Below, in pieces: positions 33,627 to 60,802 of a DNA stretch of 64,000 nucleotides. Location of the stretch: assembly GCF_023703325.1 (NCBI RefSeq), contig NZ_JAMQGM010000045.1, forward strand, positions 1-64,000. The letters are read 5' to 3'. The translations under genes and the position numbers were made by a program. Source of the stretch: Streptomyces meridianus (lineage in GTDB: Bacteria; Actinomycetota; Actinomycetes; Streptomycetales; Streptomycetaceae). How positions within the stretch are numbered: the first letter of the stretch is position 1; each line of letters opens with the position of its first letter. The notes beneath the pieces are model-generated. The model worked only from the letters and a program-made list of their open reading frames with translations. It searched no databases and was not told the origin of the DNA.

Positions 33627-35108
33627 ATGGGTTTGGACTACGACCGGCTGGTCGCCTTGCGGAAGCAGAGCGCGGCTTGGCGGTTGCTGAGAGCTGACCA
33701 CGCGGCGCTGATGCTGAGCTTCTTCAACAAGGTTTTCGTCGAGCAAGGGTCGCGGTCGATTGCTGGCCCGGAGCTTGTCGAACGCTTGGACGACGAGTTG
33801 TTCGCGCTCAATGAGCGGCTGGGGCGGAGCGCGTTTCCCAAGTCCGCGAAGGCGTACCTGGATGTCTGGTCGGCACCGGAGAACGGTTGGCTGCGCAAGT
33901 ATTACCCGCCGGATTCGGACGAACCGCACTTTGACGCCACGGCCGCGGTCGAGAAGGCCCTTGCGTGGGTCCGGTCGCTGGAAGAGCGCTCGTTCGTCGG
34001 TACGGAGTCGCGCCTGAACACGATCTTCGATCTGCTGCGGCAGATGACGTTCGGAACCGAAACCGACCCCGAGGCACGACTGGCCGAGCTCACGCGGCGC
34101 CGACACGAAATCGACCAGGAAATCGCGCGGGTTGAGGCTGGCGAGGTGGACGTCCTTGATAGTGCGGCGCTGCGGGACCGCTATCAGCAGGTGACCTCAA
34201 CGGCGCATGGGCTGCTGGCCGACTTCCGTGAGGTGGAGGCGAACTTCCGAGACCTGGACCGCGATTTGCGGAGCAAAATCGCCGCATGGGATGGGGCCAA
34301 GGGCGAACTCCTGGATGAGGTGCTGGGGAGCCGGGAGAGTATTGCAGAGTCGGATCAGGGCAGGACCTTCCAGGCGTTCTACGACTTTCTGCTCGCCCCG
34401 AGTCGTCAGGACGAGCTCAAGACGCTGCTGGCCGAGGTCGAGAGCATGGAGGCCATCGACGAGCCTGACCCGAGAATGCGGCGCATGCACCGGGACTGGT
34501 TGGAGGCCGCCGAACGTACCCAGGCTACGGTGCGGCAGCTGTCAGACCAGTTGCGCCGATTCCTCGATGACCAGGTGCGCTCGGAAGACCGCCGTGTCCT
34601 GGAACTGGTACGCCCGATCGAGGCCAAGGCCCTGGCGCTGCGTGATGTGTCTGGCGTGGGACTGATCGCCGAGATCGATGCGGCCGCGCCGGCGATCGCT
34701 CTGCCGATGGAGCGGCCGTTGTACGCGCCGGTGGTCAAGACGCCGATCGACAGCACCGGGATCCAGCCGGGGGACGAGGAGTTCACCGTGGATGCCCTGT
34801 TCGAGGCGGTTTATGTGGACCCCGCCCGGCTCACGGCCGCAGTGCACCACGCCCTCGGTGCCCGGACACAGGTGTCGTTGGCTCAGACGTTGCGCGAGCA
34901 CCCACTGGAGCAGGGCCTCGCCGAACTGATCGCCTACTTCGCGCTGCCGGACGACGGGTTCACCACGGTGTTCGACGACCGCCGTCAAGAAGAGATCACA
35001 TGGATCGGCGAGAACGACGTCCAGCAGGTTGCCACCGTGCCCGTGGTCACCTTCGCCCGCACCGGCCGCGGCATCACCTGGGCCACCAGCCAGAAGGAAG
35101 ACCGATGA
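33627..35108 (+). CDS. jetA: Wadjet type I JetA (DUF3375, kleisin-like)
   Basis: 493 aa, the DUF3375 length. The start [20 protein letters not shown] and N-terminal [17 protein letters not shown] are typical. A long helical/coiled region spans about 150-345 ([36 protein letters not shown]). The C-terminal winged part ends with TEEITWIG-like sequence. In Wadjet, JetA bridges the two JetC ATPase heads as the kleisin of an SMC-type motor that recognises small circular DNA. ATG 33627 follows GAGAGG; the frame also opens at GTG 33621. Overlaps jetB by ATGA. Confidence 0.93.
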
Positions 35109-35731
35109 ACCCGTCTGCCAATCCAGGACAGCAGCAGCCGTACACCTTGTCCTTGCCGGTCAATCAACTGCTGAAGGGGCCGGTCTTCCGTGACCAGCAC
35201 GAGCGGGCCTGGGACGCGCTGCTGAACCTCAGCGCTGGAGTCAAGGACTACGTCGAGGTCATGGGCCTGCGCGTGGTGATCGACGAAATGGAGGGCTACG
35301 CCTTTCTCCAGTCGACGCCCGACGACGAGGAGGAAGCCTGGGACTCGCACACGACGCCGCCGCGGTTGATTCCCCGCCGCTCGCTGTCCTACCCCGTCAG
35401 TTTGCTGGTTGTGCTGCTGCGCAAGAAGCTCGCGGAGTTCGACGCGGGCGCGGACGGAACCCGCCTCATGATCACCCGTGACGAGATCGTCGAGATGATC
35501 CGCACGTTCCTCCCGGCCGGCAGCAACGAGGCGCGCATGATCGACCAGATCGACGGCCACATCAACAAGGTCGTGGATCTGCAGTTCCTGCGCCGTGCCC
35601 GTGGCCAAGAGCAGCTGTTCGAGGTGCAGCGGATCATCAAGGCTTTCGTCGACGGGCAATGGCTCGCCGACTTCGACACGAACTTGGCCCAGTACGTGGC
35701 CTCCCACGCCCCTCAGGAGAAGCAGCAGTGA
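35105..35731 (+). CDS. jetB: Wadjet JetB (DUF4194, MukE-like)
   Basis: 208 aa. The DUF4194 signature is visible in [59 protein letters not shown] and [20 protein letters not shown], consistent with the winged-helix KITE/MukE-like subunit that binds JetA. Start overlaps jetA (ATGA) and stop overlaps jetC (GTGA), so the operon is tightly coupled. Confidence 0.93.
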
Positions 35732-38700
35732 TCCCCGCACAGTCCGGCCCGGCCGGCACGGTCACCCCCGTCGACCTGGCAGTGGCCGGTTTCAGGCTGG
35801 AGCGCCTGGAGGTCTACAACTGGGGCACGTTCGACAAACACGTGTGGTCGTTCGGCCTCGCCGGCGCCAACGGTCTGCTGACCGGCGACATTGGTTCCGG
35901 CAAGTCCACCCTGGTGGACGCGATCACCACGTTGTTCATGCCTGCCCGCAAGATCGCTTACAACCGGGCGGCCGGCGCGGAGAGCGGCGAGCGCAGCCTG
36001 CGCTCCTATGTGCTGGGCCACTACAAGTCGGAACGCAATGAGCAGACCGGCGCGACCAAGCCGGTGGCGCTGCGCAAACCCGGCAACTACTCCGTGATCC
36101 TGGGGGTGTTCCACAACGCCGCTTTGGGGTCGACCGTCACGCTGGGTCAGGTGTTCGGGCTGGCCGATGCCAACGCCACCAGCCCGGAGCGACTGTTCCT
36201 CGTCGCAGACCGGGCCCTGTCCGTCGCCGACGACTTCGCAGACTTCGGCACCGAGGTGCGGGCGTTGAAGAATCGACTCGAAGCCGACGAGGTCCGCGTC
36301 CACAAGACGTTCCCGCCCTACAGCAAGGACCTGCGGCGCCGTCTGGGCATTGACTCCGAGCAGGCCCTGGAGCTCTTCCACCAGACGGTGTCGATGAAGG
36401 CGGTGGGCAGCCTGGACGACTTCGTCCGCAGTCACATGCTCGAACCGTTCGACGCGGCCGCGATGACCGACAACATCGTCACCCACTTCGACGCCCTGAC
36501 CACCACCTACAACTCGGTTCAGAGGGCCCGGGCTCAGATCGAGGCACTGACTCCGCTGCTTGCCGATTGCGACGCCTACGAGGACCTGACCGCGCGCATC
36601 GACGAAGGGGACGCGCAGCAGGCCGCCCTGCGCTACTTCATCGCCCAGCACACCGCGGCTCTGCACGAGGAGCAGTGTGCCGCCCTGGAACAGATGCTCT
36701 CTCGCCTCGCGCACGAAAAGCAGAGCGCCAAGGAACGACTCGACCAACTCCGTGCCGAGCAGAGCCGATGGGAGTTGCAGCGTGAAGGGCTCGGTGGCGG
36801 GCGCCTGGGTGAACTCGGCCGCCAGATCAAGGAAACGGAGCTGCAGCGCGACGCCCGGCACAAGCGAGCCCTCGAGCATGCCGACCTGCTGGAACAGGCC
36901 GACCTGGCTCTGGTCACTGATCAAGTTCAGTTCACCGGTCGCCTCGACGACATCGCCCGTGCCCAGCACGAGGCGGCCGAAGCCGAGCAGCAGGCGCGCA
37001 TGGCCCTGGAGGCGCTCGCCGTCGAGGCCGCACAACTGAGGCAGCAGGCGCAGGATCTCAACGATGACCTGGTCAGTCTGCGCTCACGCCGCAGCAACAT
37101 CTCCCGCAAGCAGCTGGATGTACGGGCCCGCCTGTGCCAGGAGCTCGGTCTTGACGAGAGCGCACTGCCGTTCGTCGGCGAACTCATGCAGGTCCGCGAA
37201 GAGGAACAGGCGTGGGCCGGCGCCGCCGAGCGTCTGCTGCGCGGCTTCGCCCTGTCCCTCCTCGTCCCCGGCGACCAGTACGACCGAGTCTCCGAGTGGA
37301 TCAACGGTCATCACCTGGGGGCCAAGCTCGTCTACTACCGGGTACCCGACAAATTCCCGCCCCGGCGCCACCACAAAGCCCCGCCCAACGCGCTGTTCAC
37401 CAAACTCGAAGTACGCGACGACTCCCCGTTCGCCGAATGGCTGGCCGGTGAGCTCGAGCGCCGCGCATCGCACGCCTGCGTGGCCACCATGGACGAGTTC
37501 CGGCAGGCTGAACTGGCCATCACCGAAAAGGGATTGATCAAGGGAGCGCGGGGCCGCCACGAGAAGAACGACACAACCCGCATCGACGACCGCAGCACCT
37601 ACGTCCTCGGCTGGACCAACCAGGCGAAGATGGACGCTCTCCTTGACCAGGCGAACCGCGTTCACAGCGCCCAGCGCGAACTGGCCGAACGCAAGCGCGG
37701 CTTGGAAGCCGCTCACGCGGACAGCATGAGCCTCGACAAGGTCCTCAACCGGCTGGCAGCCTTGCGTGACTACAGTGAAATCGACTGGGCGTCAGCTGTA
37801 CGGCGGATCACCGAACTGACCGATGAGAAGCAGCGCCTGGAAGCCGCCTCCAAGGACCTGAAGGAACTCGAACGCCGGCTGAACGAGGTCGCCGACGAGA
37901 TCAGCAAGCAGGACGCCGTTTACGAGGAAGCGAACCAGAACTGGGGCCAGGCGCTGGGTGAGCAGACCACGGCCATCCGCGGCTGTGACGAGGCGCGGGC
38001 CATTCTCGCCGAGGCTGCCGCAGCCGACGCTCAGTCCCAGTTCCCCGCCCTCGAACAGCGCCTGAAGGATGCCCGCCTCGCCTGCCGCACGCCGCAGGAG
38101 TGCACCCGGGCCGAAACCCGGCTCCGTGAGGACCTGACGGCACAGAAGAACCGCTGGAGCAAGGAACAGACACGGCTGGCCCAGGCGATGGCCTCCCAGA
38201 TGCGCACTTTCCGTACCGACTACCCGTCCGAGACCAATGAGCTCGACGACTCCGTCGCCTCCGCCGACGGCTACCGCACCCTGCATCAGCAGCTTGTCGC
38301 CGACGACCTGCCCCGATTCGAGGCCCAGTTCCGCACGTACCTGAAGACCAATGTGATCCGTGAAATCGCCGGATTCCACGCTCAGTTGACCATCTGGGCC
38401 GATGAGATCGGCGAACGCATCCACACGATCAACGAGTCGCTGGCCGGCATCGACTACAACCCGGGCCGCTACATCATGCTCAAGCCCGAGCCGACGCCCA
38501 ACACGGAGATCCGCGACTTCACCGCGGAACTGCGCGCCTGCACCGACGACGTCCTGTCAGGCGACGGCTCTGAGCTGTATTCAGAAGAGAAGTTCCACCA
38601 GGTCCAGCGTCTGATCGAACGCTTCAAGGGGCGCGAGGGTCACACGGATGCCGACCGGGCCTGGACCAGACGCGTCACCGACGTGCGTTACTGGTTCGTC

Positions 38701-39144
38701 TTCAGCGCAAGCGAGCGACGTCGCGAGGACGACTCCGAGTACGAGGTGTACTCCGACTCCGGCGGCAAGTCCGGTGGCCAGAAGGAGAAGCTCGCCTACA
38801 CCATCCTGGCCGCCTCCCTCGCCTACCAGTTCAAACTGGATGCAACCGCCAGCAGGAGCCGCACGTTCCGCTTCGTGGTCATCGACGAAGCCTTCGGGCG
38901 CGGCTCCGAGGAATCCGCCCGCTTCGCCCTCGACCTCTTCAAACGCCTGGGCCTGCAACTCCTCATCGTCACCCCGCTCCAGAAAATCCATGTCATCGAG
39001 CCGTACGTGTCCGCCGTCGGCTTCGTCGACAACCCGAACGGACACCACTCCCGCCTGCGCACCCTGACCATCGCCCAGTACCGCCAAGAGCGCCTCGCCC
39101 ACACCCTCGCCGGTATGCAGCCTGCCTCTGGCCAGGGAGACTGA
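35728..39144 (+). CDS. jetC: Wadjet JetC (SMC/MukB-like ATPase)
   Basis: 1138 aa from GTG 35728 (AGGAG upstream). Walker [12 protein letters not shown] at about residues 51-61, two long coiled-coil arms (about 300-470 and 620-800) around a hinge-like centre ([20 protein letters not shown]), the ABC signature [11 protein letters not shown] near 1015 and Walker [12 protein letters not shown] near 1050. All catalytic motifs are intact. JetC is the DNA-translocating loop-extruding subunit. It works with JetA/B to sense plasmid size and presents DNA to JetD. Confidence 0.95.
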
Positions 39145-39145
39145 G

Positions 39146-40357
39146 ATGACGACGCATCAAGGATCCACCTGGACCACGCCGGAGGCCGTCCTCGCACGCC
39201 TCCGCAAGCGGTGGAACACCGGTGCCTACCTCACCCAACTCGCCGACGGAACAGACTGGGAACCCGTCGCGATTCCTCTACGCGGCCCGAAAGCCGGCGA
39301 CATCACCCGCCGCTACGATGACGTCCTCGCCTGGGCCGAGTCGTGGGCGCCCAGCGCTCACCCGCACCTGCGTATCGAGTACCGCCGACTCGGCGGACGC
39401 CTGGCCGGCGTGAACAATGTGCCCGACCGCATCTGGATCGACGACCGCGACGACCTGTGGCGCCTGCTGGGCGTCACCCCTACGGTTGCCCGCTTCCAAA
39501 GCCTGCTGGCCTCCACCCAGGAACGGCTGCCCGAGATCATCCCCTGGCTGATCGCCCATCCCATGAAGGTCCTCGACAGGGAAGCCGACTGGCCCCGCCT
39601 TCAGGCCACGATCCGCTGGATCACCGACTACCGCGGCCCATCTGTCCACCTGCGCCAACTCGACGTTCCCGGCGTGGACACCAAGTTCATCGAATGCCAC
39701 CGCTCCATCTTGACCACCCTGCTCGAGCAGTGCCTTCCCGAAGACCGTATCGACTCCGAGTCTGCGCGGACCGATTTCGCCGCCCGTTTCCGCTTCCTGC
39801 GCAAGCCCGCCTACCTACGATTCCGACTGCTCGACGGCGAGCCGCTGGCGGGCTTCAGCGAACTCACCGTACGCACAGATGAGTTCACCGCGCCGCCGTC
39901 CGGCATCACGACCGTGTACGTCGTCGAGAACGAAACCACTTACCTGGCCTTCCCCAAGCAGCCCCACAGCATCGTGATCCACGGCGGCGGCTACGCCGTC
40001 ACCCAGCTGTCCGGCCTTTCCTGGCTGCAGGACGTACGCCTAGTCTATTGGGGCGATGTGGACACACACGGGTTCGCCATCCTCGACCGGCTGCGCTGGG
40101 CCTTCCCGCACACGCAGTCCATCCTGATGAACCGCAGTGTTCTCCTGGAGCACCGCGAACAGTGGGTGAAGGAAGACACCCCCACCCACCAGCCGCTGAG
40201 CACGCTCACACCGGACGAAGCCGATGTCTACGACAGCCTCGTGGATGGTGACCTCGGCCCCAACGTGCGACTCGAACAAGAACGCGTGCAGTTCCATCTA
40301 GTCGAAGACGCCCTAACTGTCGATGCGGAGCGAGCCCGACCAATGGCGGAGAGGTAG
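39146..40357 (+). CDS. jetD: Wadjet JetD nuclease (DUF3322/DUF2220)
   Basis: 403 aa. The N-terminal DUF3322 region (about 1-190, TTPEAVLARLRKRWNTGAYL) is followed by a DUF2220 toprim-like domain. VYVVENETTYLAFP (catalytic Glu), IVIHGGGYAV and VYWGDVDTHGFAILDRLR (acidic DxD near residue 300) resemble the Topo VI/Spo11 toprim. JetD cleaves closed circular DNA once extrusion stalls. It starts one nucleotide after the jetC stop. The set jetABCD is complete and in canonical order. Confidence 0.93.
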   Translation: MTTHQGSTWTTPEAVLARLRKRWNTGAYLTQLADGTDWEPVAIPLRGPKAGDITRRYDDVLAWAESWAPSAHPHLRIEYRRLGGRLAGVNNVPDRIWIDDRDDLWRLLGVTPTVARFQSLLASTQERLPEIIPWLIAHPMKVLDREADWPRLQATIRWITDYRGPSVHLRQLDVPGVDTKFIECHRSILTTLLEQCLPEDRIDSESARTDFAARFRFLRKPAYLRFRLLDGEPLAGFSELTVRTDEFTAPPSGITTVYVVENETTYLAFPKQPHSIVIHGGGYAVTQLSGLSWLQDVRLVYWGDVDTHGFAILDRLRWAFPHTQSILMNRSVLLEHREQWVKEDTPTHQPLSTLTPDEADVYDSLVDGDLGPNVRLEQERVQFHLVEDALTVDAERARPMAER

Positions 40358-40361
40358 CGAC

Positions 40362-41021
40362 GTGAGTCTCGCCAAGAACGCAGCTGAACTGGGTGGAAAG
40401 CTCTGGTCGGAGCACGGGCACGCCCACTACTACTTTCCCCAATACACCCTGAACTGGTTCGCCGGGATCTCCTATCAGGGTGACAGCGGCCCCCATTACC
40501 GAGGCCAGCAAATCACGCCGATTCAGGCCAGCCGTCTGCGTACGGCACTGTGGGAGGTCGCCGTGTCGGCCGAACCAGAGCAGCGCGGCAAGGTCTTGAT
40601 TGCTTCGGACTCCTGCCGCGGTACACATCGCGCAAAGCTGATCAGATCGCCGCTCGCCACCGCCACGGAGATGCGCGAGATTGCGCAAGAGCGCGCTTCG
40701 CTACTTCTGCGCCACGATGGGGAGTGTTCAATGATCGGCGAGTGCCTTTGGCCCTTGGTGACTCTGATTCTCCCGGGGCTCTTCTCGCGCGGCCATGAAG
40801 TGCCAGTGCAGTGGGAGTGCATTTCGGCGTGCGGGTTCCTGCACCGGAGCGGCGACGAGGGGCAGTCTTGTGGGGACGTGATCGGGCGCTGGAACGGCCG
40901 CTACGCCTGCCTGCTGCAGGCCGCCCTTCCGGCTCGGAAGCGAGCAGTTCGCCGCGCACTTGGGTATCGCCCTGAGGACTGTGGCCGCCTGGCACTCCGA
41001 CGCGTCTGTCGTACCTCGTAG
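40362..41021 (+). CDS. Uncharacterised ORF coupled to jetD
   Basis: GTG at 40362 lies four bases after the jetD stop, with GGAGAGG inside the jetD 3' end as its ribosome site. The open frame runs 219 codons. The first 90 or so residues (LGGKLWSEHGHAHYYFPQYT, then IQASRLRTALWEVAV) look like genuine protein. The last third overlaps the decayed XRE-NUDIX gene and is probably read-through of pseudogene sequence, so the true end is uncertain. No family was recognised. It could be a fifth Wadjet-associated gene or a truncated leftover. Confidence 0.4.
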   Translation: MSLAKNAAELGGKLWSEHGHAHYYFPQYTLNWFAGISYQGDSGPHYRGQQITPIQASRLRTALWEVAVSAEPEQRGKVLIASDSCRGTHRAKLIRSPLATATEMREIAQERASLLLRHDGECSMIGECLWPLVTLILPGLFSRGHEVPVQWECISACGFLHRSGDEGQSCGDVIGRWNGRYACLLQAALPARKRAVRRALGYRPEDCGRLALRRVCRTS

Positions 41022-41485
41022 GGAGATGTAGCAGCTTCTCGACACGGCCTATGAGCATGCCCCTGCCACTGCGCGACAGCGCTTCGCACTCCTGCTGGCG
41101 AAGGAACGGGCCCCAGCGGACTCGGACGCCGCCAGGCGTACAGGCACTGCGGGTGGCCGTCGCGGTGGTGGTTCGCGACAGCGATGTCCTGCTTGTGTGT
41201 CGGCGGGACGACGACGTTGCCGGGATCACGTAGCAGTTCCCGGCCTGGGTCATCAAGCCGGGGGGTAAAGCGGAGAGCACCACCGTCCGAGAGACCTTGG
41301 ACGAGACCGGTGTCCACTGCGCAGTCCGCCAACACCTCGGCAATCGGCTTCATCCCGTGACCGGCGTGCTGTGCGAGTCGAGAACATCGACGTCATGTGG
41401 GGTGCCCCGAACCTCGGTGCCCCGCTTCATACCCGTCGATACGATCTTCCCACCCATCCTGGCTTTCCTGGAGGAGCAGACGTGA
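40878..41485 (+). pseudogene. Decayed HTH-NUDIX fusion gene
   Basis: A helix-turn-helix part (EQFAAHLGIALRTVAAWHSD) and a NUDIX part (LRVAVAVVVRDSDVLLVCRR, then QFPAWVIKPGGKAE) can be followed only by changing frame several times: near 40930, between about 41060 and 41140, and near 41370. Two in-frame TAG codons replace expected residues: after RREM (normally Gln) and after AGIT (normally Trp of the ITWQFP motif). The last frame, ending FIPVDTIFPPILAFLEEQT, stops at 41485 and overlaps the next gene's GTG. The gene is dead by multiple lesions. Confidence 0.75.
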
Positions 41486-41630
41486 CGCAGCAGAACGCGG
41501 AGGAACGAGCAGCCATCGCCGCGGCCATCGTCGTCAATGAGGGGCGCGTGCTCATGGTCCGCCGCCGAGTCAGCGAGGGGCAGCTCTCCTGGCAGTTCCC
41601 GGCCGGTGAGGTTGAGCCCGGAGAGGCGCG

Positions 41631-41672
41631 TGAGTGATGGCGCTCTCTGAAAGTCCTCAGTCGGCGCTCTCT
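41631..41672 (+). repeat. IS21 left end and target duplication
   Basis: TGAG (41631-41634) is the left copy of the 4-bp target duplication. The element starts TGATGGCGCTCTCTGAAAG at 41635. GGCGCTCTCT is repeated directly at 41639-41648 and 41663-41672, as expected of multiple transposase sites in IS21 ends. Confidence 0.8.
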
Positions 41673-41794
41673 ACTTCCTCAAACCTGCTCAGTTGATCTC
41701 CCCATCCTTCGTGTGATCTTGGTCGGCGTGTCGAACTGACTCCGACGTGTACGGGAGAGCCTGCGTACGCAAGTCGGCCTGTTCGGGGGCCTGG

Positions 41795-43152
41795 ATGCTT
41801 ACGCGGGAGGAAGACGTGGACGCTCATGCGCTGCGTCGTCAGGGATGGACGATCTCGGCGATCGCCCGGCATCTGGGCCGGGATCGCAAGACGATTCGCG
41901 AGTACTTGAACAGCGAGCGGGTGGCTGGGCAGCGGCGCCAGGCCCCCGATGCCTTCGTTGCGTTCTTGCCGTACTGCCGCCAGCGCCTCGCGGACGATCC
42001 GCATTTGTGGGCGTCGACGCTGCTGGACGAGGTGCGGGCGCTGGGATACGAGGGCGGGTACTCCACGTTCACGCGGGCGTTGCGCCGGCACGGGGTGCGT
42101 CCGCACTGCGAGCCGTGTCATGCCTCGAGCGGGCGGGACGTCGCTGTGATCGCGCATCCGCCGGGCGAGGAGATCCAGTTCGACTGGGTGGAGTTGCCCG
42201 ACCCGCCGGAATTCTGGGGCGTGGGCAGTCACGCGCATCTGCTGGTCGGCGCGCTCGCGCATTCGGGCCGGTGGCGGGCGGTGCTGGCCGACAGTGAGGA
42301 TTTCCCGCACTTCGTCCAGGCGCTGGACGTGGTGGTGCGCAAGCTCGGTGGGACTGCGCGGCGGTGGCGTTTCGACCGGATGGCGACGGTCTGTTACCCG
42401 TCCAGCGGACAGTCACCGCGGCGTTCGCGGCGGTTGCGAAGTACTACGGGGCCGGGGTCGATATCTGTCCGCCGCGTCGCGGCAATCGCAAGGGCGTGGT
42501 GGAGAAGGCCAACCATTCCGCCGCCCAGCGGTGGTGGCGGACGGTCCCCGACGAGCTGAGCGTGGTCCAGGCCCAGTCCGGGGTCGACAAGCTCGCCGTC
42601 CGGATGGACGCCCGCCGCCGGAGGATCGACGGCATCGCCTTTACGGTCGCTGAACTCGCGTTTGCTGAAGGCTTGTTGAAGGTTCCGGTGAGGCCGTTCC
42701 CGGCCGAGCTCGAGGCCGAGCGGGTGGTGAGTCCGCAAGGGCTGGTGTCCTTCGAGGGCAATCAGTACTCCGTGCCGCCGGGCCTCCCGGGCGCCCAGGT
42801 CAGGGTTCTGCACCGGCTCGGCGAGGACCACGTGCGGATCGCGACGGCGGGCCGGGCGGTGATCGCCCAGCACCGGCTCGCGCCCCGCGGGGCCGGACAG
42901 ACCGTCCGTGACGACGGGCACGTCGTCGCGCTCGAGCGCGCGGTGCTGGCCTCGTTCACCGACCGGGCGCCCTGCAAGACCAAGGTCCGCCGCCCACCGT
43001 CGGCCGCCGCGCTGGCCGAGGCCGAGGAACTGCGCGGCCGGCCTGCCGCCGGAGACCCGGCCGAACGGGTCGTCATCGACCTGGCCACTTATGCCGCCGT
43101 GGCCGACCGGCTGCGGAGTGATCCCTCGTCGAAGGAGGAGAACAAGGAGTGA
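41795..43152 (+). pseudogene. istA: IS21 transposase IstA, frameshifted
   Basis: HTH at the N-terminus (ALRRQGWTISAIARHLGRDR), then the DDE integrase core with EEIQFDWVELPDPP and FDRMATVCYPSSG. The frame then breaks near 42410 and resumes one base back as VTAAFAAVAKYYGAGVDICP, with the catalytic Glu in NRKGVVEKANH. A single-base deletion within about 42400-42415 explains it; no slippery heptamer is visible. The two parts together are a full-length IstA of about 450 aa ending in a GTGA overlap with istB. Confidence 0.85.
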
Positions 43153-44469: not shown

Positions 44470-44498
44470 ACGAGCCCGTCTCACCGTTACCGATCATC

Positions 44499-44529
44499 AG
44501 GGCCCGGCGGCCTTCGGCCGCCGGGCCCT
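44499..44529 (+). terminator. Hairpin terminator of the IS21 operon
   Basis: AGGGCCCGGCGGCC (44499-44512) and its perfect complement (44516-44529) form a 14-bp stem with a TTC loop, 30 bp after the passenger ORF. Confidence 0.8.
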
Positions 44530-44601
44530 CGCACGTGCTCGTCACTCCCCACCCTCCTCACTTAGTCAAAAACTCGACGACGTGAGGAACGAAGAGCACA
44601 G

Positions 44602-44631
44602 CTGGCCGTTTTCAAAGATCCTCATCATGAG
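44602..44631 (-). repeat. IS21 right end and target duplication
   Basis: Read inward from 44627 the right end is TGATGAGGATCTTTGAAAAC, matching the left end at 17 of the first 26 positions, including TGATG and TGAAA. TGAG at 44628-44631 is the right copy of the target duplication. Confidence 0.8.
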
Positions 44632-50800: not shown

Positions 50801-51587
50801 CGGCAGACACCGACAACTTGGTCTGGTAAAGCCACGCCTCGACCGGGATCTTCCGAGGAGTCTCCCGGTCATTGCACAGCGCCACCTCAATCAAGCGGCA
50901 GCCGCGCTCTGCCTCGTCATGACGATCCACCCGGAGCACGACCTTGTCCTTCAACACGAGCTCGCTCGTACGGGACGGTGTGAGACCGGCGACCTTGATC
51001 GTCTTGACGATGTCGTGCGGGGTCCGCTGGAAACGCCGGAGAGCCTGTGCGGATTCACCTTCTGCTTCGCCGCGCTTCTCCTTGACTGGCCCGTACGTGC
51101 CCCACGAGGCCGTCACCGTGAACTCGTCCAGATCGTCGGGGATCTGGAATCGCAGCCCCATCGACGCCGGAATCATCAGGCCGCGTTTCTGCGGCTGGTC
51201 CTCGACCGCGTCCTCGTCCGAACTCGCGCTGCTGTCATCGACAGCCGTGAGCGGCACCCCCCGGCTCCCGGCTGCGTCAACGGCATCGCCGACGTCTGTC
51301 GCGGCATCGGCAGAGCCGGCCTCGCCGGGGTCGTCGTGGCCGGTGGTCAGACGCACGGGCGCGATCCGGCCGATCAGATACGCCGAGTCAGGCACGCCTT
51401 CGAGGATCTCGGTCGGCCCATTCGCAGGGCCGAGAAGTTCACGCTCCAGGATGTCCACGAGGTTCTCGCGGACTGTCCAGGAGCGGTCATCGGGTTCGAG
51501 GGCAAGGCGATAGGCAGGGGCCTCAGCAGCGCCGGGTGTGCCTGCGCTCCCTACGGCCTGAGCGCCATCACGCCGGGGGGTATTCAC
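47841..51587 (-). CDS. drmA: DISARM DrmA helicase
   Basis: 1248 aa. After an N-terminal region of about 490 residues with an acidic low-complexity patch (SSASSDEDAVEDQ), the SF2 helicase has Walker A FFPTGGGKTEAYLG near 500, DEAH-type VIQDELHLI near 757 and C-terminal motifs LATSMLQVGVDVTRLGLMLV and IQASSRVGRDAD. An inserted zinc cluster is CPWCGTRV. DrmA loads on DNA with 5' overhangs. GTG 51587 follows AGGAGGG and overlaps the drmMI stop. Confidence 0.94.
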   Translation of the reverse strand: MNTPRRDGAQAVGSAGTPGAAEAPAYRLALEPDDRSWTVRENLVDILERELLGPANGPTEILEGVPDSAYLIGRIAPVRLTTGHDDPGEAGSADAATDVGDAVDAAGSRGVPLTAVDDSSASSDEDAVEDQPQKRGLMIPASMGLRFQIPDDLDEFTVTASWGTYGPVKEKRGEAEGESAQALRRFQRTPHDIVKTIKVAGLTPSRTSELVLKDKVVLRVDRHDEAERGCRLIEVALCNDRETPRKIPVEAWLYQTKLSVSAGGAEVFLPVNDVLLDPREEWDDELRRLRLQYRDRLEFAHGRTCSVDWKVAKGSRRASGVWTTWLPVSETPQTAAEEIGTALLDMRSLQEASIADLRDGLEPIVKGYAAWLDGEERRAEALPEHLRSEGLEAVGDARRVQQQLENGLAFLLADAEALRCFRFMNRVMADQRVQSQVVERRASKPEESIEAAREAVIAEKQARAHSWRTFQLAFVLMQLPLLSDPAAEKRSGNLAKAQLLFFPTGGGKTEAYLGLAAFTFAIRRRQGVVDAFDGPLDGRAGVAVLMRYTLRLLTAQQFQRATTLVCAAELVRREAPAIWGEEPFRIGLWVGTDVSPKRYDEAAEQLQKAHGGRGYRLTVLQIQRCPWCGTRVEARDVRTEPALRRVYVYCGDELAECPFSDGGEVPDGLPVLTVDEEIYRLAPAFVIATVDKFARLSREGEAASLFGHVSRRCERHGFVHPDYQQCDIKDGSKHPKKDRYPAAPVHPAMRLRPPDLVIQDELHLITGALGTTVGLFEVAIDVMSDWRTKDGRPVRPLLVASTATARNASEQVRALYGRDVTIFPPQVLDAGNTFFSKEIPVSEDRPGRRYVGISTTGVRLTTAEIRVSEVLMAGGQLLLDLSGKAADPYMTLVGYFSATRELAGMARYMSDDIQTALAKGRPWSKLSRRTGTNFGSLNVAELTSRVSSADITATLDQMAASFDPGFDSTAGKRNRRALREAKRPEPTREVNPYDVVLATSMLQVGVDVTRLGLMLVVGQPKNTAEYIQASSRVGRDADRPGLVVALGNWARPRDLAHFEQFRHYHETFYKQVEALSVTPFSVTSLERGLDGVLVSAARVLQAAKAGQGLSPEDGAARIEAEQHFAGELIDALVERIVKVGDEDAANRARLRLENRLDQWLKRRKHLMEDRKSLVYERVKDESRHDALMMSAENAKAGIDSRDAAPFIVANSMREVQPEINLLVSPIKERLVYRAPDHAPQWKLPEDQS

Positions 51588-54500
51588 TCGTCGCCCTCCT
51601 TTTCCTCGATGGGCCCATTGTTGCCGGTGGAACCGACAACGCCCTGCGCGGCGGCACGACGATGGTTCTCTTCGAGGAGCCGGTCGAGGATCTCCACGCG
51701 GGCGGCAGGGCTCACCGTCCAGCGCTGCATCTGACGGTAAGTGTGGAAGCCGTGGTCCAGCGGGACATCGTCCCACCCGTAGGCGGCCATGACGGCACGG
51801 TCGAGCTCTACATGGATATCCCGTAGGCGGGCAACGTCAGGGTCGGCGGCATTGGTAATGCCAGGGTCGTTGACCAGATTGTAGAGCTTGGTGAGACCGA
51901 GACCGCGGTGCAGCATGATCTCTCGGCGGTCAGCGTTGAGCATCTTGCCGACTTCTGCAAGGTGTCCGCTCACATCCGGGCGTGGAAAGGTTTCAAAGAC
52001 AGCCGATGGTGTGTATGTCGGGTCAACTCGCATCGTGGTCCCGTATTTGATCGTCCACAGCTGATGCGGGCTACTGGACAAGACCGCGAGATCTGCGAAT
52101 GCCCCCTTGGCGAACACAACTAGCTTTTCATGGAATACCTGTCGTGTTGGCACACGAAGAGGCATCACAGTCTTACTGACTCGCGCAATCACCAGCACCT
52201 CGTCGAGGTCAGCGTGGGTGAGCGCCTTCCGCATCGCAGGGCGCTTTTCGCAGAACTGCCACCAGTAGTCTCTATAGACTTTCCGGTTGTTTCGAGCGCG
52301 CTCCGGCTTCACTTGTTCTAGCACTCGTTGATACGGCAGCTCGTACTCCTGGGCCTGCTGTTCCGATCTATTGTTGAAGTCAATGACCCAGCGTGAAGGC
52401 GTGCTATCCGGGCGGGAGTTGAGATCCTCACCGTTGAGGTAAGGGAACAAGACGTCCTTGTTCATCGGATCGGCATCGATCCACGCCGCGGCTTCGTCGG
52501 GTTCCAGCACGAAGCCCATGCCCAGCACGTTACAGCCCTGAAAAGAGAGCCCGATGTTCTCTGCCAGTCGCTTCGGATCGCCGTCCACCCGGCCTCCCGG
52601 TTCGAGGAGCGTGGAGATCCGCTCAACCTCGATGTCCCCCTCGATCTCGGCGACGATTCGGGGCACCGCCGAGTTCATGTCGGCCCGACTACCCCACACC
52701 GCCGCATACTCGAGGTTGGCGCTGGCTGCAGGCCACGACCGGCTCTGGATCGAGCGGGTGATCGCGAAGCCCTTCGAGACCACCTGGTCGAGGCCGACCT
52801 GCCGAGTGTCCCCCTGAGCGACGGTATTCGTCGCGATCAGCCCGAGGGTGCCGCGCCGCAACAGCAGCTCATGCGCGCGCAGGAAGAAATACGCCACCAG
52901 ATCCGCACTCCCCTTCTTCCCGCCCGCGAGTGTGTTGACGAACCAGTCACGGACACTAGTCCCCAACGCGCCGGTGAGTTTCTGCCCGCCCAGGAAGGGC
53001 GGATTTCCGACCACTGCGTCGAAGCCACCCCGCTCCATCACATCCGGCACAGCCAGGATCCAGTGCAGCGGCTTCCACCGCTCGTAATCCGTCGTCACCG
53101 TCGGCGTGAGCCCGGCCTCCTGGATGCCGTCGAGCATTGTCCGGTTCGGCTCCCCGCCTCCGGCGGGGTACGCCCTCTCCACCGCGATGTGCAGGTCCTC
53201 GTACGCCGCCTTCAATTGTTTCCCGGGCTTGCCGCCCAATCGCAGACCAGCCGCGATCACACCATCCGCGACGTCAGCGAGCTGAGCCGTCAGTCCCTGG
53301 TATCGGCGCCACTGCCGTCGCTTGGCCGCCGCCGAGCGCTGTGGATCCCCGTCATCGACCTCGGTGGCGAGCTGGCGGCGCAGGCGAGTGGCCTTGTCCA
53401 GGATGTCGTCCACATTGAGGCCGAACACGCTGAGTTGGTCGCCGGCCGCTGCGGGGTTGATGTGGAGGTCACGTAGCTGCCGGGCATCGGTGAGGCCGAG
53501 CAGGGCGTTGCCGTGCAGCACCTTGTCGTCGACGAAGGAGAACGGCAGCTTCGGGTCGAGCGAAACCAGCCACAGCGACAGCTTGCACATTTCCACGGCC
53601 ATGCCGTTGATGTCGGCGCCGTACAGACAGGTGGCGACGACGGTCCTTATGGCGTGGACGCGCATGTCATGCGGCGACCCGTATGCTTGCCCTTGTCGCT
53701 GCCATGCCTCAACGAGTCGGTCGGCGAGGTACCGGGCCGCGGCGACGAGAAAGGCCCCTGAGCCGCAGGCGATGTCGGCGATGCGCAGGTCGAGGATCTG
53801 GTCGGAGTCGATCGGGTGCCACTCGTCCTGGTCAGCAGTCTGGTGCGGTCCGGGCGAGTAGACCAGAGGCTCCAGCGCGTACCGAACAACTTCCTCAGCA
53901 AGGGACCGGGGCGTGTAGTGGGCGCCTGCGGAGGCCCGCGAGGGAGTCTCTACCAGCAATACGCCGCCGGGTTCCACGACGAGGGGACGACCTCGCAAGT
54001 CGCGGCGGATGATGCCGATGAACGGGCGAAGTCGTTCGCGGAGTTCGGGGTCGTCGGTGACGTCGCGCAGGGCGATCTCGGCGTCGTCGAGCGTCTCGCC
54101 CGCCTTCAGCGCCTTGATGAGGGCGGCCTTGCTGGACGGTTTTGCGGCCGGCTGGTTCTGCTTGACCCAGGCGAGGATTGCGTCGCCCAGCGCGGTCTCG
54201 GTGCGGTTCGCTTCGGCGAGTTCTTCGAGGGTGGCGAGGGGGATCTCGGGTTCGGACCCCGCGCTGCCGGTCAAACTGACGATGGTCTCTTTGACTGGTT
54301 CGCAGGAGTAGCCCAGCAGACCCTCATAGATGTAGCCGATCTGCTCGACGTCGATGTCGCGGAAGGAGATCCGCCTTGCACCGCCGGGCAGTTGGGCAAC
54401 CTGAACGGCGCGCAGCACTTCGAGCATGACGCGGTCGCTGACTGTGATGGCCAGGGTGTCCTGGGCGTCGCAGGCGGTGAGGAAGGAGAAGCGGGCGGGG

Positions 54501-55627
54501 TCGAAGAGGGAGCCGCCGTACTCGGGCAGGCGGAGGTCTTCGAAGGTCGCGCCCCGGTACAGGGCCTGGGAGGTGGCAAGAAGCCGGTGCCAGGTCAGGA
54601 AGGTGGCGTCAAGGGCCTGCTCGCTCTCCTCCTTCTCGCGTGCATCGAGGAGGTCGAGTTCGTCGCTGATGCCGTAGCCCATGGCGAAGAGGCGGCTCTG
54701 CGGCAGCAGTCCGCGCTCCTCTGCGAAGAGGAGGAAGACGACGCGCATCATGACGGTGACAGCGGCCTCGTAGACCTCGCCCCGCTGCGTGGGAAGTGGG
54801 TCGGGTTCGCCGCGTCGTTGTGCGTCCAGAGCGCCTTCGGAAAGGGCCTGGACGACGAGTTCGACGGCACGGCGGACCTGGGTGCCGAGCGCTTCGGTGA
54901 TCTTCTCGGCGGCGGTGACGGACTCACCGAAGAGTTCCGTCAGTCGGTCCTGCGGCTTACCGCCGACCAGACGGCGGCGCTGGAGGAGTTCGATGTAGGC
55001 GTTGCGGGTCTGGGGCTCTTCGATCCAAGTCTGTGCGTCGACAATGCCGGAGGCGACCATGGTCTGCGGGCGCGCGCTGACGATGGCCCACCAACGGCCA
55101 TCGGTGACAATGCCAATGGGGACGTCAGAGGCGCGCAGTAGCTCTTCCATGCGGTCGATGGGGCTGGCCGACCATCCGTCGGTGAGCGGGTCGCGCAGGG
55201 AGTCCGTGGGGTTGGTGACCAGGACGAGGGCGCCGGTGGTGTCACCGTGGATCAGAGCGCCGTCAGCGCGCACGGTGACAATGTAGTCGGGCGAGCGGAC
55301 ATCGGCGGCGGCCGGGGCCGGCACGGTGTAGGAGGTGCCCCAGCGTAGGCCCTGGCGCAGGACGAGGTCGACCCAGGCGTCGCGGGCTTCCCGATACAGG
55401 GCGAGCGCGGCTTCGTCATCGGGGTGCTCGTCCCAGTTCTCCCACGCCTTTTCGAAGCTGGGTTTGGCGTCCTTGATGGCGTCGAGCGCGCTGGCGTCGG
55501 GCTGGGGGATGCCTTGCGGGTAGACGCGTTCCAGGGCGGGGACGGCAAGGAACGGGCCGTCGGTGTCCACGAGTTCGAGCCAGGAGCGGTGCAGTTCGGC
55601 GGCGGTCAGGGGGTACTTGCGGCTCAT
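51584..55627 (-). CDS. drmMI: DISARM class 1 N6-adenine methyltransferase
   Basis: 1347 aa, type IIG-like size. SAM-binding motif IADIACGSGAFLVAAARYL near residue 617, catalytic NPPF in FDAVVGNPPFLGGQKLTG near 872, and a C-terminal specificity region (TPSRWVIDFNNRSEQQAQ). The N-terminal 400 residues form a helical region without obvious nuclease motif. It should methylate host adenines to mark self DNA and defines this as class 1 DISARM. ATG 55627 overlaps the drmD stop. Confidence 0.93.
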   Translation of the reverse strand: MSRKYPLTAAELHRSWLELVDTDGPFLAVPALERVYPQGIPQPDASALDAIKDAKPSFEKAWENWDEHPDDEAALALYREARDAWVDLVLRQGLRWGTSYTVPAPAAADVRSPDYIVTVRADGALIHGDTTGALVLVTNPTDSLRDPLTDGWSASPIDRMEELLRASDVPIGIVTDGRWWAIVSARPQTMVASGIVDAQTWIEEPQTRNAYIELLQRRRLVGGKPQDRLTELFGESVTAAEKITEALGTQVRRAVELVVQALSEGALDAQRRGEPDPLPTQRGEVYEAAVTVMMRVVFLLFAEERGLLPQSRLFAMGYGISDELDLLDAREKEESEQALDATFLTWHRLLATSQALYRGATFEDLRLPEYGGSLFDPARFSFLTACDAQDTLAITVSDRVMLEVLRAVQVAQLPGGARRISFRDIDVEQIGYIYEGLLGYSCEPVKETIVSLTGSAGSEPEIPLATLEELAEANRTETALGDAILAWVKQNQPAAKPSSKAALIKALKAGETLDDAEIALRDVTDDPELRERLRPFIGIIRRDLRGRPLVVEPGGVLLVETPSRASAGAHYTPRSLAEEVVRYALEPLVYSPGPHQTADQDEWHPIDSDQILDLRIADIACGSGAFLVAAARYLADRLVEAWQRQGQAYGSPHDMRVHAIRTVVATCLYGADINGMAVEMCKLSLWLVSLDPKLPFSFVDDKVLHGNALLGLTDARQLRDLHINPAAAGDQLSVFGLNVDDILDKATRLRRQLATEVDDGDPQRSAAAKRRQWRRYQGLTAQLADVADGVIAAGLRLGGKPGKQLKAAYEDLHIAVERAYPAGGGEPNRTMLDGIQEAGLTPTVTTDYERWKPLHWILAVPDVMERGGFDAVVGNPPFLGGQKLTGALGTSVRDWFVNTLAGGKKGSADLVAYFFLRAHELLLRRGTLGLIATNTVAQGDTRQVGLDQVVSKGFAITRSIQSRSWPAASANLEYAAVWGSRADMNSAVPRIVAEIEGDIEVERISTLLEPGGRVDGDPKRLAENIGLSFQGCNVLGMGFVLEPDEAAAWIDADPMNKDVLFPYLNGEDLNSRPDSTPSRWVIDFNNRSEQQAQEYELPYQRVLEQVKPERARNNRKVYRDYWWQFCEKRPAMRKALTHADLDEVLVIARVSKTVMPLRVPTRQVFHEKLVVFAKGAFADLAVLSSSPHQLWTIKYGTTMRVDPTYTPSAVFETFPRPDVSGHLAEVGKMLNADRREIMLHRGLGLTKLYNLVNDPGITNAADPDVARLRDIHVELDRAVMAAYGWDDVPLDHGFHTYRQMQRWTVSPAARVEILDRLLEENHRRAAAQGVVGSTGNNGPIEEKEGDE

Positions 55628-58600
55628 GCCTTGACCATTCCGTTCTTGGCGTCTTCAGGTGTGAGAGCGAACACGACCGCGGCGGCGGACACGTAGGGCC
55701 GGATGTCGCTGTAGCGCTCCTGGATCGAGGCGATCTCGCGTGCTTCCTCGTCGTCCAGGCTGTCGAGGCGCTCGTTCATGTGGTGCAGATCGCGGCGGCG
55801 CTGTTTCTGCTGGTCATCGGTGAAAAGGAGCTCTTCCTCGGCGCGGATCTCCCGCTCCAGGCGGTCACGGGACTCGCGCAGGTTGAGCCGGAACGCGTCG
55901 AAGATCTCGTGGGCGCGATTGATGTCGGCGTCCCTGCGCTGTGTGAGGGCCTCGGTGACCTTCTCCTGGCGAGCGGCGCTCTTGCGTTCCATCGCGGTCA
56001 CCAGGCGGGTACGCAGTCGGGCCCCGTCGTTCCACTGTTCGGCGAGGTGGGCGCGTACCTCATCGTTAGCGAGGATCAGGTCCGCAGAGTCGAGCGTTTC
56101 GTCGAGTACCCGCTCGACCTTGGCCTCGGCGAGCGCCTGACCGCGCAAGCGCACGCCGGTGAGGAAGACCTCCTCATGCAGTCGTAGCCCGCCACGCCCG
56201 ACCAAGACGAGCCGAGAGACAGCGGCGACACACGATTCGGGAAGGTCGGGGGTGACGACGGCGGTGACTCGGTGCACCGGGGAGTCAGTGCTGAACAGGG
56301 CGGAGCGGAGTGTGCGGGTGGCCCGCTGCATGAGGGCGTGTCCGAGGTGAATGTGGACGAGGTCGGTGCGCTGCTGCGCGGCCTGGTCGTCGAAGGTGAT
56401 GGGACGCAGCACGCCCGGTTCCAGGCGGGTGTCCAGGCCGCGCAGTGCCGACTGCCAGGTGCGGCCGAGGTTCGGGATCTCAAAGACCTGTGCCTCGGTG
56501 CGGTCGTCGCCGATCTCGTCCAGCGGGGGCTGGGAGGTCAGGGTGAGTGCGGTGTCCACCACCCGGCGCGCGTTGGCGGGCGTGAGGTGCATGGCGGCCT
56601 TGGACGCGCCGTACGACTCCGACAGCTGGGTCAGCTTGCGGTTCAGCTCGATTCCGCCCGCCAGGGCCCGGGCGATCACCTCGTTGCCGTCGTCCGGTGC
56701 CGTCGGTCGGGGCTTGCGTGTCGTCCGAGTGGGACTGAAGTGCTCCTGCACCTCGGCGTCGATGACCTGGTTGATCTTGCCGAGGTCTTCGGTGGCCTGC
56801 CCGACCTTCGTCGCGATGATTCCCATGAACTTCATGTCCGCGGCGTACGTCGTGGAGCTGGAGACCGGTACGAAGTGGAAGATCTCCGGGTTCTGCGTCT
56901 GCCCGTACCGGTCGATTCTGCCGATGCGCTGCTCCAGGCGGGACGGGTTGAAGGGGATGTCGAAGTTGACGAGGCGGTGGCAGTGGGTCTGGAGGTCGAT
57001 GCCCTCGCCCGCGGAGTCGGTGGCGAGCAGGACACGCACCGGGTGCTTGTCGGGGCTCTCGGTGAACCTGGCGCGGATCTTCTCCCGCTCCTCGGTCGGG
57101 GTCGAACCCTGGATGACCTCGAGAACGCCGTCGTAGCCGCGCTGGCGCAGGATGCGCTCGATCCATTCCAGGGTGGCGGCGTACTCGGTGAACACCACGA
57201 CCCGTTCGTTGGTCCAGAGGCGGCCGTCCGGGCGGCAGACCGTGTTGAGGAAGGACAGCAGCTCTTCCAACCGGGAGTCCGGCTTGTGCTCGTACCCCCG
57301 CCCCCACTCGACGAGCGAGGCGATCTCGCTCTTCGTGGCGGTGACCAGCGGGTCCGAGCCCTTGGAGTGGCGGAGCGCGGTGAACTCGGGGTGCTCGGCC
57401 GCACCTTCCTCCTCGTCGGACTGGCTGCTACCAAGAACCTCCGTGTAGTACTCGTCCTCGTCATCCACTCGCAGCTGGCGGTCGCCGCCATCGGCGCCCT
57501 CGTACAGCTCCAGCGTGCGGGCGAACGACCACGGGCTCGAAAGGAAGCGCTTCTTCAGCAGCATCGCGACGATGTCGCCGCCCGACTTCTTGCCGTTCGC
57601 ACGGGCACTCTCCGTCAGCAGCCGCTCCAGACGTTCGAACTGCCGCTGCTCCTCCTCGGACGGCGTGAACTGGAGGGTCCCGAGCTTCCGTGCCTTGAAC
57701 CCCTTGTCCGGCAGATCGGTCTTCAGCCAGCGCACCATCACCTCCCTGAGCGCCTTCTCATCGATGCTCGCGCCGCGGGTGAACCGGCGGCCGTCGATCA
57801 TCTCCAGGAGGGCAGTGAACGACTCCGAGTAGCCGTTGTGTGGCGTGGCGCTCAAGAACAGCCGGTGCTCGCACGCCTCCGCGAGCTTCTTCGTCGCCGT
57901 CGTCCGCTTGCTGTCCACCGCGTAGCCGCGCTGCCCGGGTGCTGTCGTCGGGCTGGCCGGCGCCACGTGGTGCGCCTCGTCGACCACCAGCACGTCGAAC
58001 GCGTACCGCCTGGCCGTCTGAGAGCTGCGCACATCGGCCAGCACGTCGCGCAGCAATCGCTGCGCCCGAAGCGACGGCAGCCACGCCATGCTCACGATCA
58101 CGCGTGGGAAGAGCCGGAACGGGTTGGCGTTCAGCCCGTGACTTCGCCGCACCTTCGCCATCAACTCGCTGTTGACGATGACGAAGTCGAGGCCGAACTT
58201 CTCCCGCATCTCGTCCTGCCACTTCAGCGACAGGCTCGGCGGACAGACGATGACCACAGACCGTGCGCGGTGCCGCAGCAGCAGCTCCTGCACGACGAGG
58301 CCGGCCTCGATGGTCTTGCCCAGCCCGACGTCGTCGGCAAGAAGCAGGTTCGTACGCGAGGATTGCAGGGCCCGGCTCAGCGGAACCAGCTGGTACGCCT
58401 CCACGTTCGCGCCGCTCCGGAACGGGGCCTGGTAGGAGTCGGAATCCGCCGAGGTGACCGCACCCCAGCGGACTGCGTCCACAAAGGCGGCGAGCGTGTT
58501 CGGATCGTCGAACGCCTCCGCCCGTACTGTCTCCGGAAGGCCCTGATGCGGCGCGACCGTGTGGCCGACCTCCAGCTCCCAGACGACCGTCAGCTCCTGC

Positions 58601-58917
58601 CCGAGCCGGTCCTCGTCCAGAGACTGCAGGCTGATCACATGGGACAGCCCCGGCGCGCCTTCGTCGGCAGGGCTTCGAGGGAGACCTTGCTTACGGACAT
58701 CGGACACCGCCCAGGTGGAGCCTCGGACCTTGACGACCTGTCCCGGCTCCGGGATCGGCGGAAGGGCTGCCGCGTTGCGGGTATTGCTCGCTGGTCCCTG
58801 TAGGTGCTCCGTAGCGGTCGCCACCTCGGCGGACTCCTTCACCAGTGCTGTTGTCGCCGGACCCTGCCCCTCGGCGATTTGCCTCGCAATGAGGGGCACG
58901 GAGGATCCCGAAAGCAC
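55624..58917 (-). CDS. drmD: DISARM DrmD, SNF2-family helicase
   Basis: 1097 aa from GTG 58917 (GGAG nine bases upstream). SNF2-type motifs: LLLADDVGLGKTIEAGLVVQ near 195, VLVVDEAHHVAP near 315, LFLSATPHNGYSES, and HELICc RLEQRIGRIDRYGQTQN near 660. The C-terminal third is helical and charged. First gene of the DISARM operon, drmD-MI-A-B-C, each pair overlapping by 4-8 bp. Confidence 0.93.
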   Translation of the reverse strand: MLSGSSVPLIARQIAEGQGPATTALVKESAEVATATEHLQGPASNTRNAAALPPIPEPGQVVKVRGSTWAVSDVRKQGLPRSPADEGAPGLSHVISLQSLDEDRLGQELTVVWELEVGHTVAPHQGLPETVRAEAFDDPNTLAAFVDAVRWGAVTSADSDSYQAPFRSGANVEAYQLVPLSRALQSSRTNLLLADDVGLGKTIEAGLVVQELLLRHRARSVVIVCPPSLSLKWQDEMREKFGLDFVIVNSELMAKVRRSHGLNANPFRLFPRVIVSMAWLPSLRAQRLLRDVLADVRSSQTARRYAFDVLVVDEAHHVAPASPTTAPGQRGYAVDSKRTTATKKLAEACEHRLFLSATPHNGYSESFTALLEMIDGRRFTRGASIDEKALREVMVRWLKTDLPDKGFKARKLGTLQFTPSEEEQRQFERLERLLTESARANGKKSGGDIVAMLLKKRFLSSPWSFARTLELYEGADGGDRQLRVDDEDEYYTEVLGSSQSDEEEGAAEHPEFTALRHSKGSDPLVTATKSEIASLVEWGRGYEHKPDSRLEELLSFLNTVCRPDGRLWTNERVVVFTEYAATLEWIERILRQRGYDGVLEVIQGSTPTEEREKIRARFTESPDKHPVRVLLATDSAGEGIDLQTHCHRLVNFDIPFNPSRLEQRIGRIDRYGQTQNPEIFHFVPVSSSTTYAADMKFMGIIATKVGQATEDLGKINQVIDAEVQEHFSPTRTTRKPRPTAPDDGNEVIARALAGGIELNRKLTQLSESYGASKAAMHLTPANARRVVDTALTLTSQPPLDEIGDDRTEAQVFEIPNLGRTWQSALRGLDTRLEPGVLRPITFDDQAAQQRTDLVHIHLGHALMQRATRTLRSALFSTDSPVHRVTAVVTPDLPESCVAAVSRLVLVGRGGLRLHEEVFLTGVRLRGQALAEAKVERVLDETLDSADLILANDEVRAHLAEQWNDGARLRTRLVTAMERKSAARQEKVTEALTQRRDADINRAHEIFDAFRLNLRESRDRLEREIRAEEELLFTDDQQKQRRRDLHHMNERLDSLDDEEAREIASIQERYSDIRPYVSAAAVVFALTPEDAKNGMVKA

Positions 58918-60793: not shown

Positions 60794-60802
60794 CGAGTGG
60801 TA

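Follow-up and report, generated by a model that had tools for sequence, protein, structure and literature searches.

The first 64,000 bases of a 137,520-base contig of Streptomyces meridianus (contig C40, NZ_JAMQGM010000045.1; assembly GCF_023703325.1, 5.64 Mb in 93 contigs), hereafter the window, carry two defence systems, a type I Wadjet (jetABCD) on the forward strand and a class 1 DISARM (drmD-MI-A-B-C) on the reverse strand. All nine genes are open, in the expected order and on the strands given by the initial annotation, jetABCD running from 33627 to 40357 and drmD-MI-A-B-C from 58917 down to 45090. The two operons are convergent, with a gap of 4,732 bp between them, of which 2,993 bp is a single IS21-like insertion. 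The families of the nine proteins were assigned with PADLOC models, Pfam, the curated cut-offs of NCBIfam and relatives in the PDB. The GC content is 65.5% in the Wadjet and 66.5% in the DISARM, against 72.0% in the left flank, which is chromosome-like and holds a pirin gene, a glutamate-cysteine ligase gene and a single-copy gene for an EgtD-type methyltransferase.

In the Wadjet operon, the product of jetA (33627..35108) matches PADLOC JetA1 at 1.7e-204 and Pfam DUF3375 at 2.6e-141, and that of jetB (35105..35731), a MukE-like protein, matches JetB1 at 3.3e-81 and DUF4194 at 2.6e-46. The gene for the MukB-like structural maintenance of chromosomes (SMC) ATPase, jetC, lies at 35776..39144 with an uncertain start, the frame being open from 35659; its product matches JetC1 (E=0) and JetC in the PDB (4.3e-59) and displays Walker A, SGGQ and Walker B motifs. 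The Toprim nuclease gene jetD (39146..40357) matches JetD1 at 3.4e-134 together with the Pfam families JetD_C and DUF3322. The closest PDB relative of JetD is MksG/JetD (1.7e-20), the motifs VVENE and WGDVD are present, and E261 is the alignment partner of the residue replaced in JetD(E248A) of PDB 8q72. None of the four Jet proteins has a match above cut-off in the NCBIfam library. The adjacency of jetA-B-C-D, best models that are all of type I, the ATPase motifs of JetC and the acidic Toprim residues of JetD place the operon among the type I Wadjets, for whose relatives MksBEFG and EptABCD are further names.

The DISARM operon starts with the SNF2 helicase gene drmD (55624..58917), whose product scores 1245 bits with NCBIfam DISARM_DrmD (cut-off 610) and E=0 with PADLOC DrmD, and carries Walker A, DEAH and QRxGRxDRxGQ motifs. 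Next comes the adenine methyltransferase gene drmMI (51584..55627; PADLOC DrmMI, E=0; Eco57I and MmeI domains), with the motifs ACGSG and NPPF and no match above cut-off in the NCBIfam library. The superfamily 2 helicase DrmA, of the DrmAS kind (47841..51776), reaches 1377 bits with DISARM_DrmAS (cut-off 950), 1.3e-290 with PADLOC DrmA and 8.5e-218 with PDB 7s9v_A, with PTGGGKTE and QDELH visible, and DrmB (45817..47868; DUF1998/MZB) reaches 674 bits with DrmB_fam (cut-off 240), 4.2e-75 with PADLOC DrmB and 1.3e-116 with 7s9v_B. The last gene, drmC (45090..45818, start uncertain), encodes a phospholipase D-type nuclease (DISARM_DrmC_I, 182 bits, cut-off 133; PADLOC DrmC, 2.7e-117) in which HAKFLAID represents the motif HxKxxxxD. 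In the PDB, DrmMI and DrmC gave weak matches to general methyltransferase and nuclease structures only; additional, loosely written patterns for helicase motifs of DrmA and for one motif of DrmB found no match. The core genes drmA, drmB and drmC therefore all pass NCBIfam cut-offs, and drmD and drmMI, the latter for an adenine methyltransferase, are both present, which is the signature of class 1. In addition, V1278 of DrmA is the alignment partner of V1296 in the Serratia DrmA, a residue proposed as the methylation sensor (PMC9142583). Both operons are thus as complete as the initial annotation had them, and the main catalytic motifs that it had reported are there.

By DNA comparison both operons belong to discrete cassettes. 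The bounds of the Wadjet cassette (33470-40314) recur at 83-85% identity in four other Streptomyces genomes (G003, G264, G226 and G175); G102, G085 and G014 have more distant copies, and G212 has a piece of jetD. Those of the DISARM cassette (45099-58990) recur at 83-85% in G262, G107, G073, G110, G038 and, in two pieces, G080; a further copy in G202 is cut by a contig end, and fragments occur in G231 and G024. The edges are sharp and the surroundings differ between genomes. The two cassettes were found together in 0 of the 17 other regions compared. Among 295 Streptomyces genomes, S. meridianus included, JetD has matches in 17 (12 below 1e-100) and DrmB in 115, with eight loci at least 82% identical over nearly the full length, again including our own; S. 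meridianus alone belongs to both the set of 12 and the set of eight. Likewise, DrmA, DrmB and DrmC gave no match at 1e-6 at any of the 36 named JetD loci, within a flank of up to 10 kb. Conservation of the exact pair of type I Wadjet and DISARM was rejected on these two grounds. DrmD-like and DrmMI-like matches in Streptomyces sp. WELS2 (L089) were not counted as DISARM; on the same contig in G102 the PADLOC DrmD match is weaker (7.3e-78, over half of the protein) and the best match of the other protein is a type IIG enzyme. A short DrmD-like match at L099 was not counted either.

A broader view was obtained at the level of families. JetD_C occurs in 36 of the 295 genomes and together with DrmB in 15, and in three of these 15 the two markers lie no more than 20 kb apart, compared with 0.10 expected at random; the test is rough, as matches to the DrmB family and JetD_C include proteins of other systems and draft contigs hide distances. 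Two of the three, G107 and G262, share one locus, with stretches 94-99% identical, so that there are two pairings rather than three. In a sample of the class (345 genomes), ten genomes have both markers and two have them within 20 kb, S. meridianus and G107, both already in the genus count. In the literature we met no report of Wadjet and DISARM paired on an element of Streptomyces, although most subscription journals were outside the search and this is weak evidence of absence.

In G107 and G262 the members of the JetD_C family adjoin the DISARM itself. PADLOC assigns JetA3 and JetD3 in G262 and JetC3 in G107, and a 271-aa protein without a PADLOC match occupies the JetB position. JetC is intact in G107 (1,485 aa) and falls into two frames in G262, the other three open reading frames having the same lengths in G107. 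In two species, therefore, a type III Wadjet lies about 2 kb away from the drmD of a DISARM that is 83-84% identical to our own. An IrrE-like peptidase (Peptidase_M78, with a helix-turn-helix recognized by eye) and a 201-aa protein also stand beside the DISARM in three of the seven relatives, on differing sides (L049:7570-9314 in G262; G107; the drmC side of G038), and this pair has no DNA match adjoining the DISARM of S. meridianus.

On its right side, the DISARM of S. meridianus is followed by a conjugation module. The first gene of the backbone shared with other genomes is DnaB-N-like (59049..60455, reverse strand; Pfam DnaB, 1.9e-22), with 72-73% identical DNA in the same relative order in G107 and G262, and the backbone extends past the window to about 104.6 kb of the contig. 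Starting 163 bp beyond the DISARM cassette, positions 59153-104578 are colinear, with gaps, with G107 from 970783 down to 904177, and positions 59153-94780 with 7899500-7937878 of G262, both at 72-82% identity. The order of the backbone and its orientation relative to the DISARM are equal in the three genomes, G107 having 22 kb, the type III Wadjet included, between the two. The backbone proteins include a coupling protein of a type IV secretion system (T4SS; PF12696, 2.7e-34; PF02534, 5.2e-23), an EccE-like protein and a relative of an NlpC/P60 protein of G110, and the annotation of a plasmid relative of the block reads SCO6880 family, ATP-binding protein and type IV secretion system protein. 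Of the 601 plasmid records with a relative of the coupling protein, 596 show less than 60% identity. A T4SS module lies near the DISARM in three of the seven relatives (G107, G262 and G110); that of G110 is more diverged (five proteins at 60-70% identity) and differently arranged, its nearest shared gene, a methylase, being 3 kb from the DISARM.

Each of the nine genes has evolved under long-term purifying selection, with pairwise ratios of nonsynonymous to synonymous substitution rates (dN/dS) of 0.08-0.28 at dS of 0.33-0.98 (five relatives for the jet genes, six for the drm genes). No frameshift or stop was found in the nine genes of S. meridianus, together about 20.7 kb. Stops in relatives fall opposite residues 7-61 of our DrmA (six of six relatives), opposite residues 10 and 18 of DrmD (two relatives) and opposite residue 207 of the 208 of JetB (G003), a pattern that agrees with predicted starts that are too long here and with a shorter JetB C-terminus in G003. 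Given the position of these stops opposite residues 7-61, the true start of drmA is probably further downstream. The two cassettes are about equally far from their nearest relatives, and the arrivals could not be dated by divergence.

The zone between the operons had been described as 4.7 kb of wreckage, a size that agrees with our measurement; most of it is one identifiable insertion that splits a NUDIX gene, with an older NUDIX-like relic next to it. That relic lies at about 40880..41480 (forward strand, the upstream part by eye; NUDIX at 0.037, below cut-off), with frame changes and an internal stop at codon 43 of the frame starting at 41102. The split gene, also on the forward strand, has its 5' part at 41482..41634 (start by eye; NUDIX profile 4-43, 1.3e-7) and its 3' part at 44628..44892 (profile 49-118, 1.8e-5), and joining the flanks restores a 197-codon open frame that contains a NUDIX box. 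Between them sits the insertion sequence (IS; 41635..44627, forward strand), which belongs to the IS21 family, with istA (Mu-transpos_C_2 at 1.9e-13 in the second part of its product), which has a frameshift near 42.38 kb, an intact istB (IstB, 4.7e-71), ends in which 18 of the first 30 bases match as inverted repeats and a 4-bp target duplication, TGAG. It is the only full copy in the assembly, short weak matches being found elsewhere. A small intact frame with CxxC-type zinc-ribbon motifs (43948-44469) overlaps the end of istB within the element. NUDIX genes are reported to be frequent on actinobacterial integrative and conjugative elements (AICEs), among which Pif of pSAM2 confers conjugal immunity (PMC3218068), and a Streptomyces integrative and conjugative element (ICE) with an HTH-NUDIX gene is reported as well (PMC9513070); by analogy, the NUDIX relics here may be of the kind carried by such elements.

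A second insertion, specific to S. meridianus, interrupts the right flank. It starts at about 60820 and runs past the window end at 64000 to about 71.0 kb (approximate bounds, some 10 kb, forward strand), with tnpABC-like recombinase genes in its left part (Phage_integrase, 9.5e-12; DUF6262, 6.3e-11), and G107 has 1.27 kb where our contig has 60174-71471. It appears to split a trpA-like gene, named by eye (60161-60840 and 71026-71358 of contig C40), and, besides the tnpABC-like genes, of which tnpB has a frameshift near 62.8 kb, it contains an MFS-like gene, an intact trpA-like copy (70160-71029) that is 39% identical to the broken one, and a tandem array of three genes (281-308 codons) in which HExxH motifs were noticed by eye and for which Pfam gave no match. 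Further along contig C40 lie a gene for a protein of 1,096 aa whose C-terminus carries a NucA/NucB DNase domain (98462-101752), one for a 1,121-aa HsdM/N6_Mtase protein, a possible further restriction-modification gene (115325-118690), and a second alanyl-tRNA synthetase gene (133117-135771), 51% identical to the copy on contig C36. No tRNA gene was found in the window or in 18 loci of G107, G262 and G110; one tRNA-Trp lies at L064:7575-7675 on contig C40. An empty chromosomal site was sought by tracing the pirin gene of the left edge in 61 genomes (our own included), with 20-kb stretches on either side compared in eight of them; more of the left side is shared by G030 alone, and in no case is the right flank matched.

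We also considered plasmids and phages as sources of the cassettes. At the DNA level, neither the DISARM part (45000-52999) nor the Wadjet part (33400-41399) is covered to 80% by any plasmid. Three trivial plasmid matches were obtained for the type III Wadjet stretch of G107 and a single trivial phage match for the DISARM part; both origins were rejected. At the protein level, relatives of DrmA occur in 85 plasmid records (best identity 60.7%) and those of JetD in 11 (all below 60%), so that both systems ride plasmids elsewhere, though not in these close lineages. One 485-kb plasmid of Candidatus Thiodictyon syntrophicum (NZ_CP020372.1) carries Wadjet genes at about 121-127 kb and drmA at about 461-464 kb, far apart.

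In light of these data, we propose that two complete defence cassettes, which other genomes carry separately, are stacked in the chromosome beside the conjugation genes of an element of integrative-conjugative type, most likely as its cargo, and we give this reading a probability of about 0.57. The most economical account is an integrative element that bears a T4SS and has DISARM as cargo, beside which two lineages each gained a different Wadjet cassette, on a different side. A plain defence island, as initially annotated, is not supported, as the conjugation module on the right is colinear with that of two other genomes in which the same DISARM is present. Several observations weigh against our proposal. 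No relaxase was found among 22 proteins of our contig beyond 64 kb and one protein of a relative, in a Pfam scan of part of the open reading frames; an integrase of the element, attachment (att) repeats and a right end were sought and not found either, and the only integrase-like gene seen sits in the insertion specific to S. meridianus. The match of the VirB4-like protein to AAA_10 is weak (Pfam, 0.0095, below cut-off). T4SS proteins are absent within 46-60 kb of the same DISARM in G080 and G038 and from the shorter stretches available for G073 and G202. Moreover, our Wadjet stands at the outer edge, between chromosome and DISARM, and the stretches examined at eight related type I Wadjet loci (G226, G003, G264, G175, G102, G014, G085 and G212) hold no T4SS proteins; for these two reasons we only infer that the Wadjet belongs to the element.

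Part of this evidence suits a different history, in which Wadjet and DISARM arrived independently and are neighbours by chance in a tolerant chromosomal stretch, the T4SS genes being a defective remnant with no role in moving them. The separate distributions of the cassettes, the eight Wadjet loci, the relaxase and att sites that were not found and the repeated insertion seen in the NUDIX and trpA-like genes all favour it, but it leaves aside a DISARM and T4SS backbone that are colinear in three genomes, two of which have a Wadjet of another type beside the same DISARM, and we consider it unlikely, if the least so of the alternatives. We regard as distinctly improbable that the locus is a host defence island, kept together by host selection for one locus covering plasmids and phages. 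Both operons are intact and under purifying selection, and the excess of close pairings in the genus would agree with this, but two of those three pairings are one locus, the class sample adds none, each cassette has close relatives that occur without the other, and DISARM itself is reported to act against conjugation. The claim that selection keeps both operons is therefore supported for each gene lineage and not for the pair, since the cassettes occur apart and dN/dS cannot tell selection since the two operons met, nor selection on their combination. The co-occurrence survey that had been suggested, run here in part, showed close relatives with one cassette or the other and two relatives that pair the same DISARM with a type III Wadjet. 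Finally, the IS and the frameshifts nearby could indicate that the systems look complete and yet are silent; with nine genes free of frameshifts and stops and the low dN/dS values, this seems very improbable.

If the two systems work as their relatives do, JetABC would extrude DNA loops and JetD would cut small circular DNA, Wadjet being reported to cut circles below about 100 kb after loop extrusion and to spare linear DNA and larger circles (PMC10586767). By the same analogy, DrmMI would methylate self DNA and DrmAB would load on unmodified DNA with 5' overhangs, the kind of substrate reported to activate it (PMC9142583), with DrmD, DrmC or other nucleases then blocking phage and conjugating DNA. 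Jointly, Wadjet may deal with small circular plasmids and DISARM with unmethylated DNA that is injected or arrives by conjugation. A clean division into an anti-plasmid Wadjet and an anti-phage DISARM, as first assumed, is too neat, since Bravo et al. report protection by DISARM against plasmid conjugation besides phages (PMC9142583), and DISARM is listed among systems acting against plasmids in a 2025 paper (PMC12287153). The two systems would therefore overlap on incoming plasmids and differ by the form of the DNA. Beyond the stacking of cassettes as cargo, one may tentatively imagine a family of Streptomyces conjugative elements in which class 1 DISARM is a constant part of the cargo and the Wadjet is exchangeable, of type I or type III depending on the lineage; the elements would use it to rid new hosts of rival circular plasmids and ICEs, self-cutting being escaped by staying integrated or by a circle larger than about 100 kb; we hold this to be doubtful. 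A Wadjet on a conjugative element, if true, would be a weapon against competitors that its carrier must itself survive on circularising. As the same DISARM stands beside type I here and type III in two relatives, Wadjet swapping on such elements is testable, and adjoining anti-plasmid and anti-phage operons should not be taken as a host strategy.

Compared with known systems, both operons are of known kinds and, taken alone, ordinary in anatomy; what this locus adds is its conjugative setting, along with the second pairing, in which the Wadjet is of another type. The locus has a coupling protein, a possible VirB4-like gene and NUDIX genes in common with T4SS-type ICEs of Streptomyces (PMC9513070) and with AICEs (PMC3218068) and differs in the relaxase, integrase and att sites, none of which was found; on present evidence it would count as a defective ICE under the rule given in PMC9513070. 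Wadjet is reported to be enriched in Actinobacteria (41% vs 11%; PMC9090908), and our operon shares gene order, four subunits and ATPase and Toprim motifs with type I JetABCD, no feature lying outside the range of the family, and JetD beyond residue 390 being unaligned in the four closest Streptomyces copies. The class 1 DISARM of Serratia sp. SCBI (DrmAB, PDB 7s9v) has the drmD-drmMI-drmA-drmB-drmC order, the DrmAS and DrmC_I models and the V1296 equivalent in common with ours. It is reported to have adenine and cytosine methyltransferases (PMC9142583), whereas the adenine-type DrmMI alone is seen in our operon. In G107 and G262 the Wadjet is of type III and lies on the drmD side, between the DISARM and the T4SS genes, whereas that of S. 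meridianus is of type I and lies on the opposite side of the DISARM.

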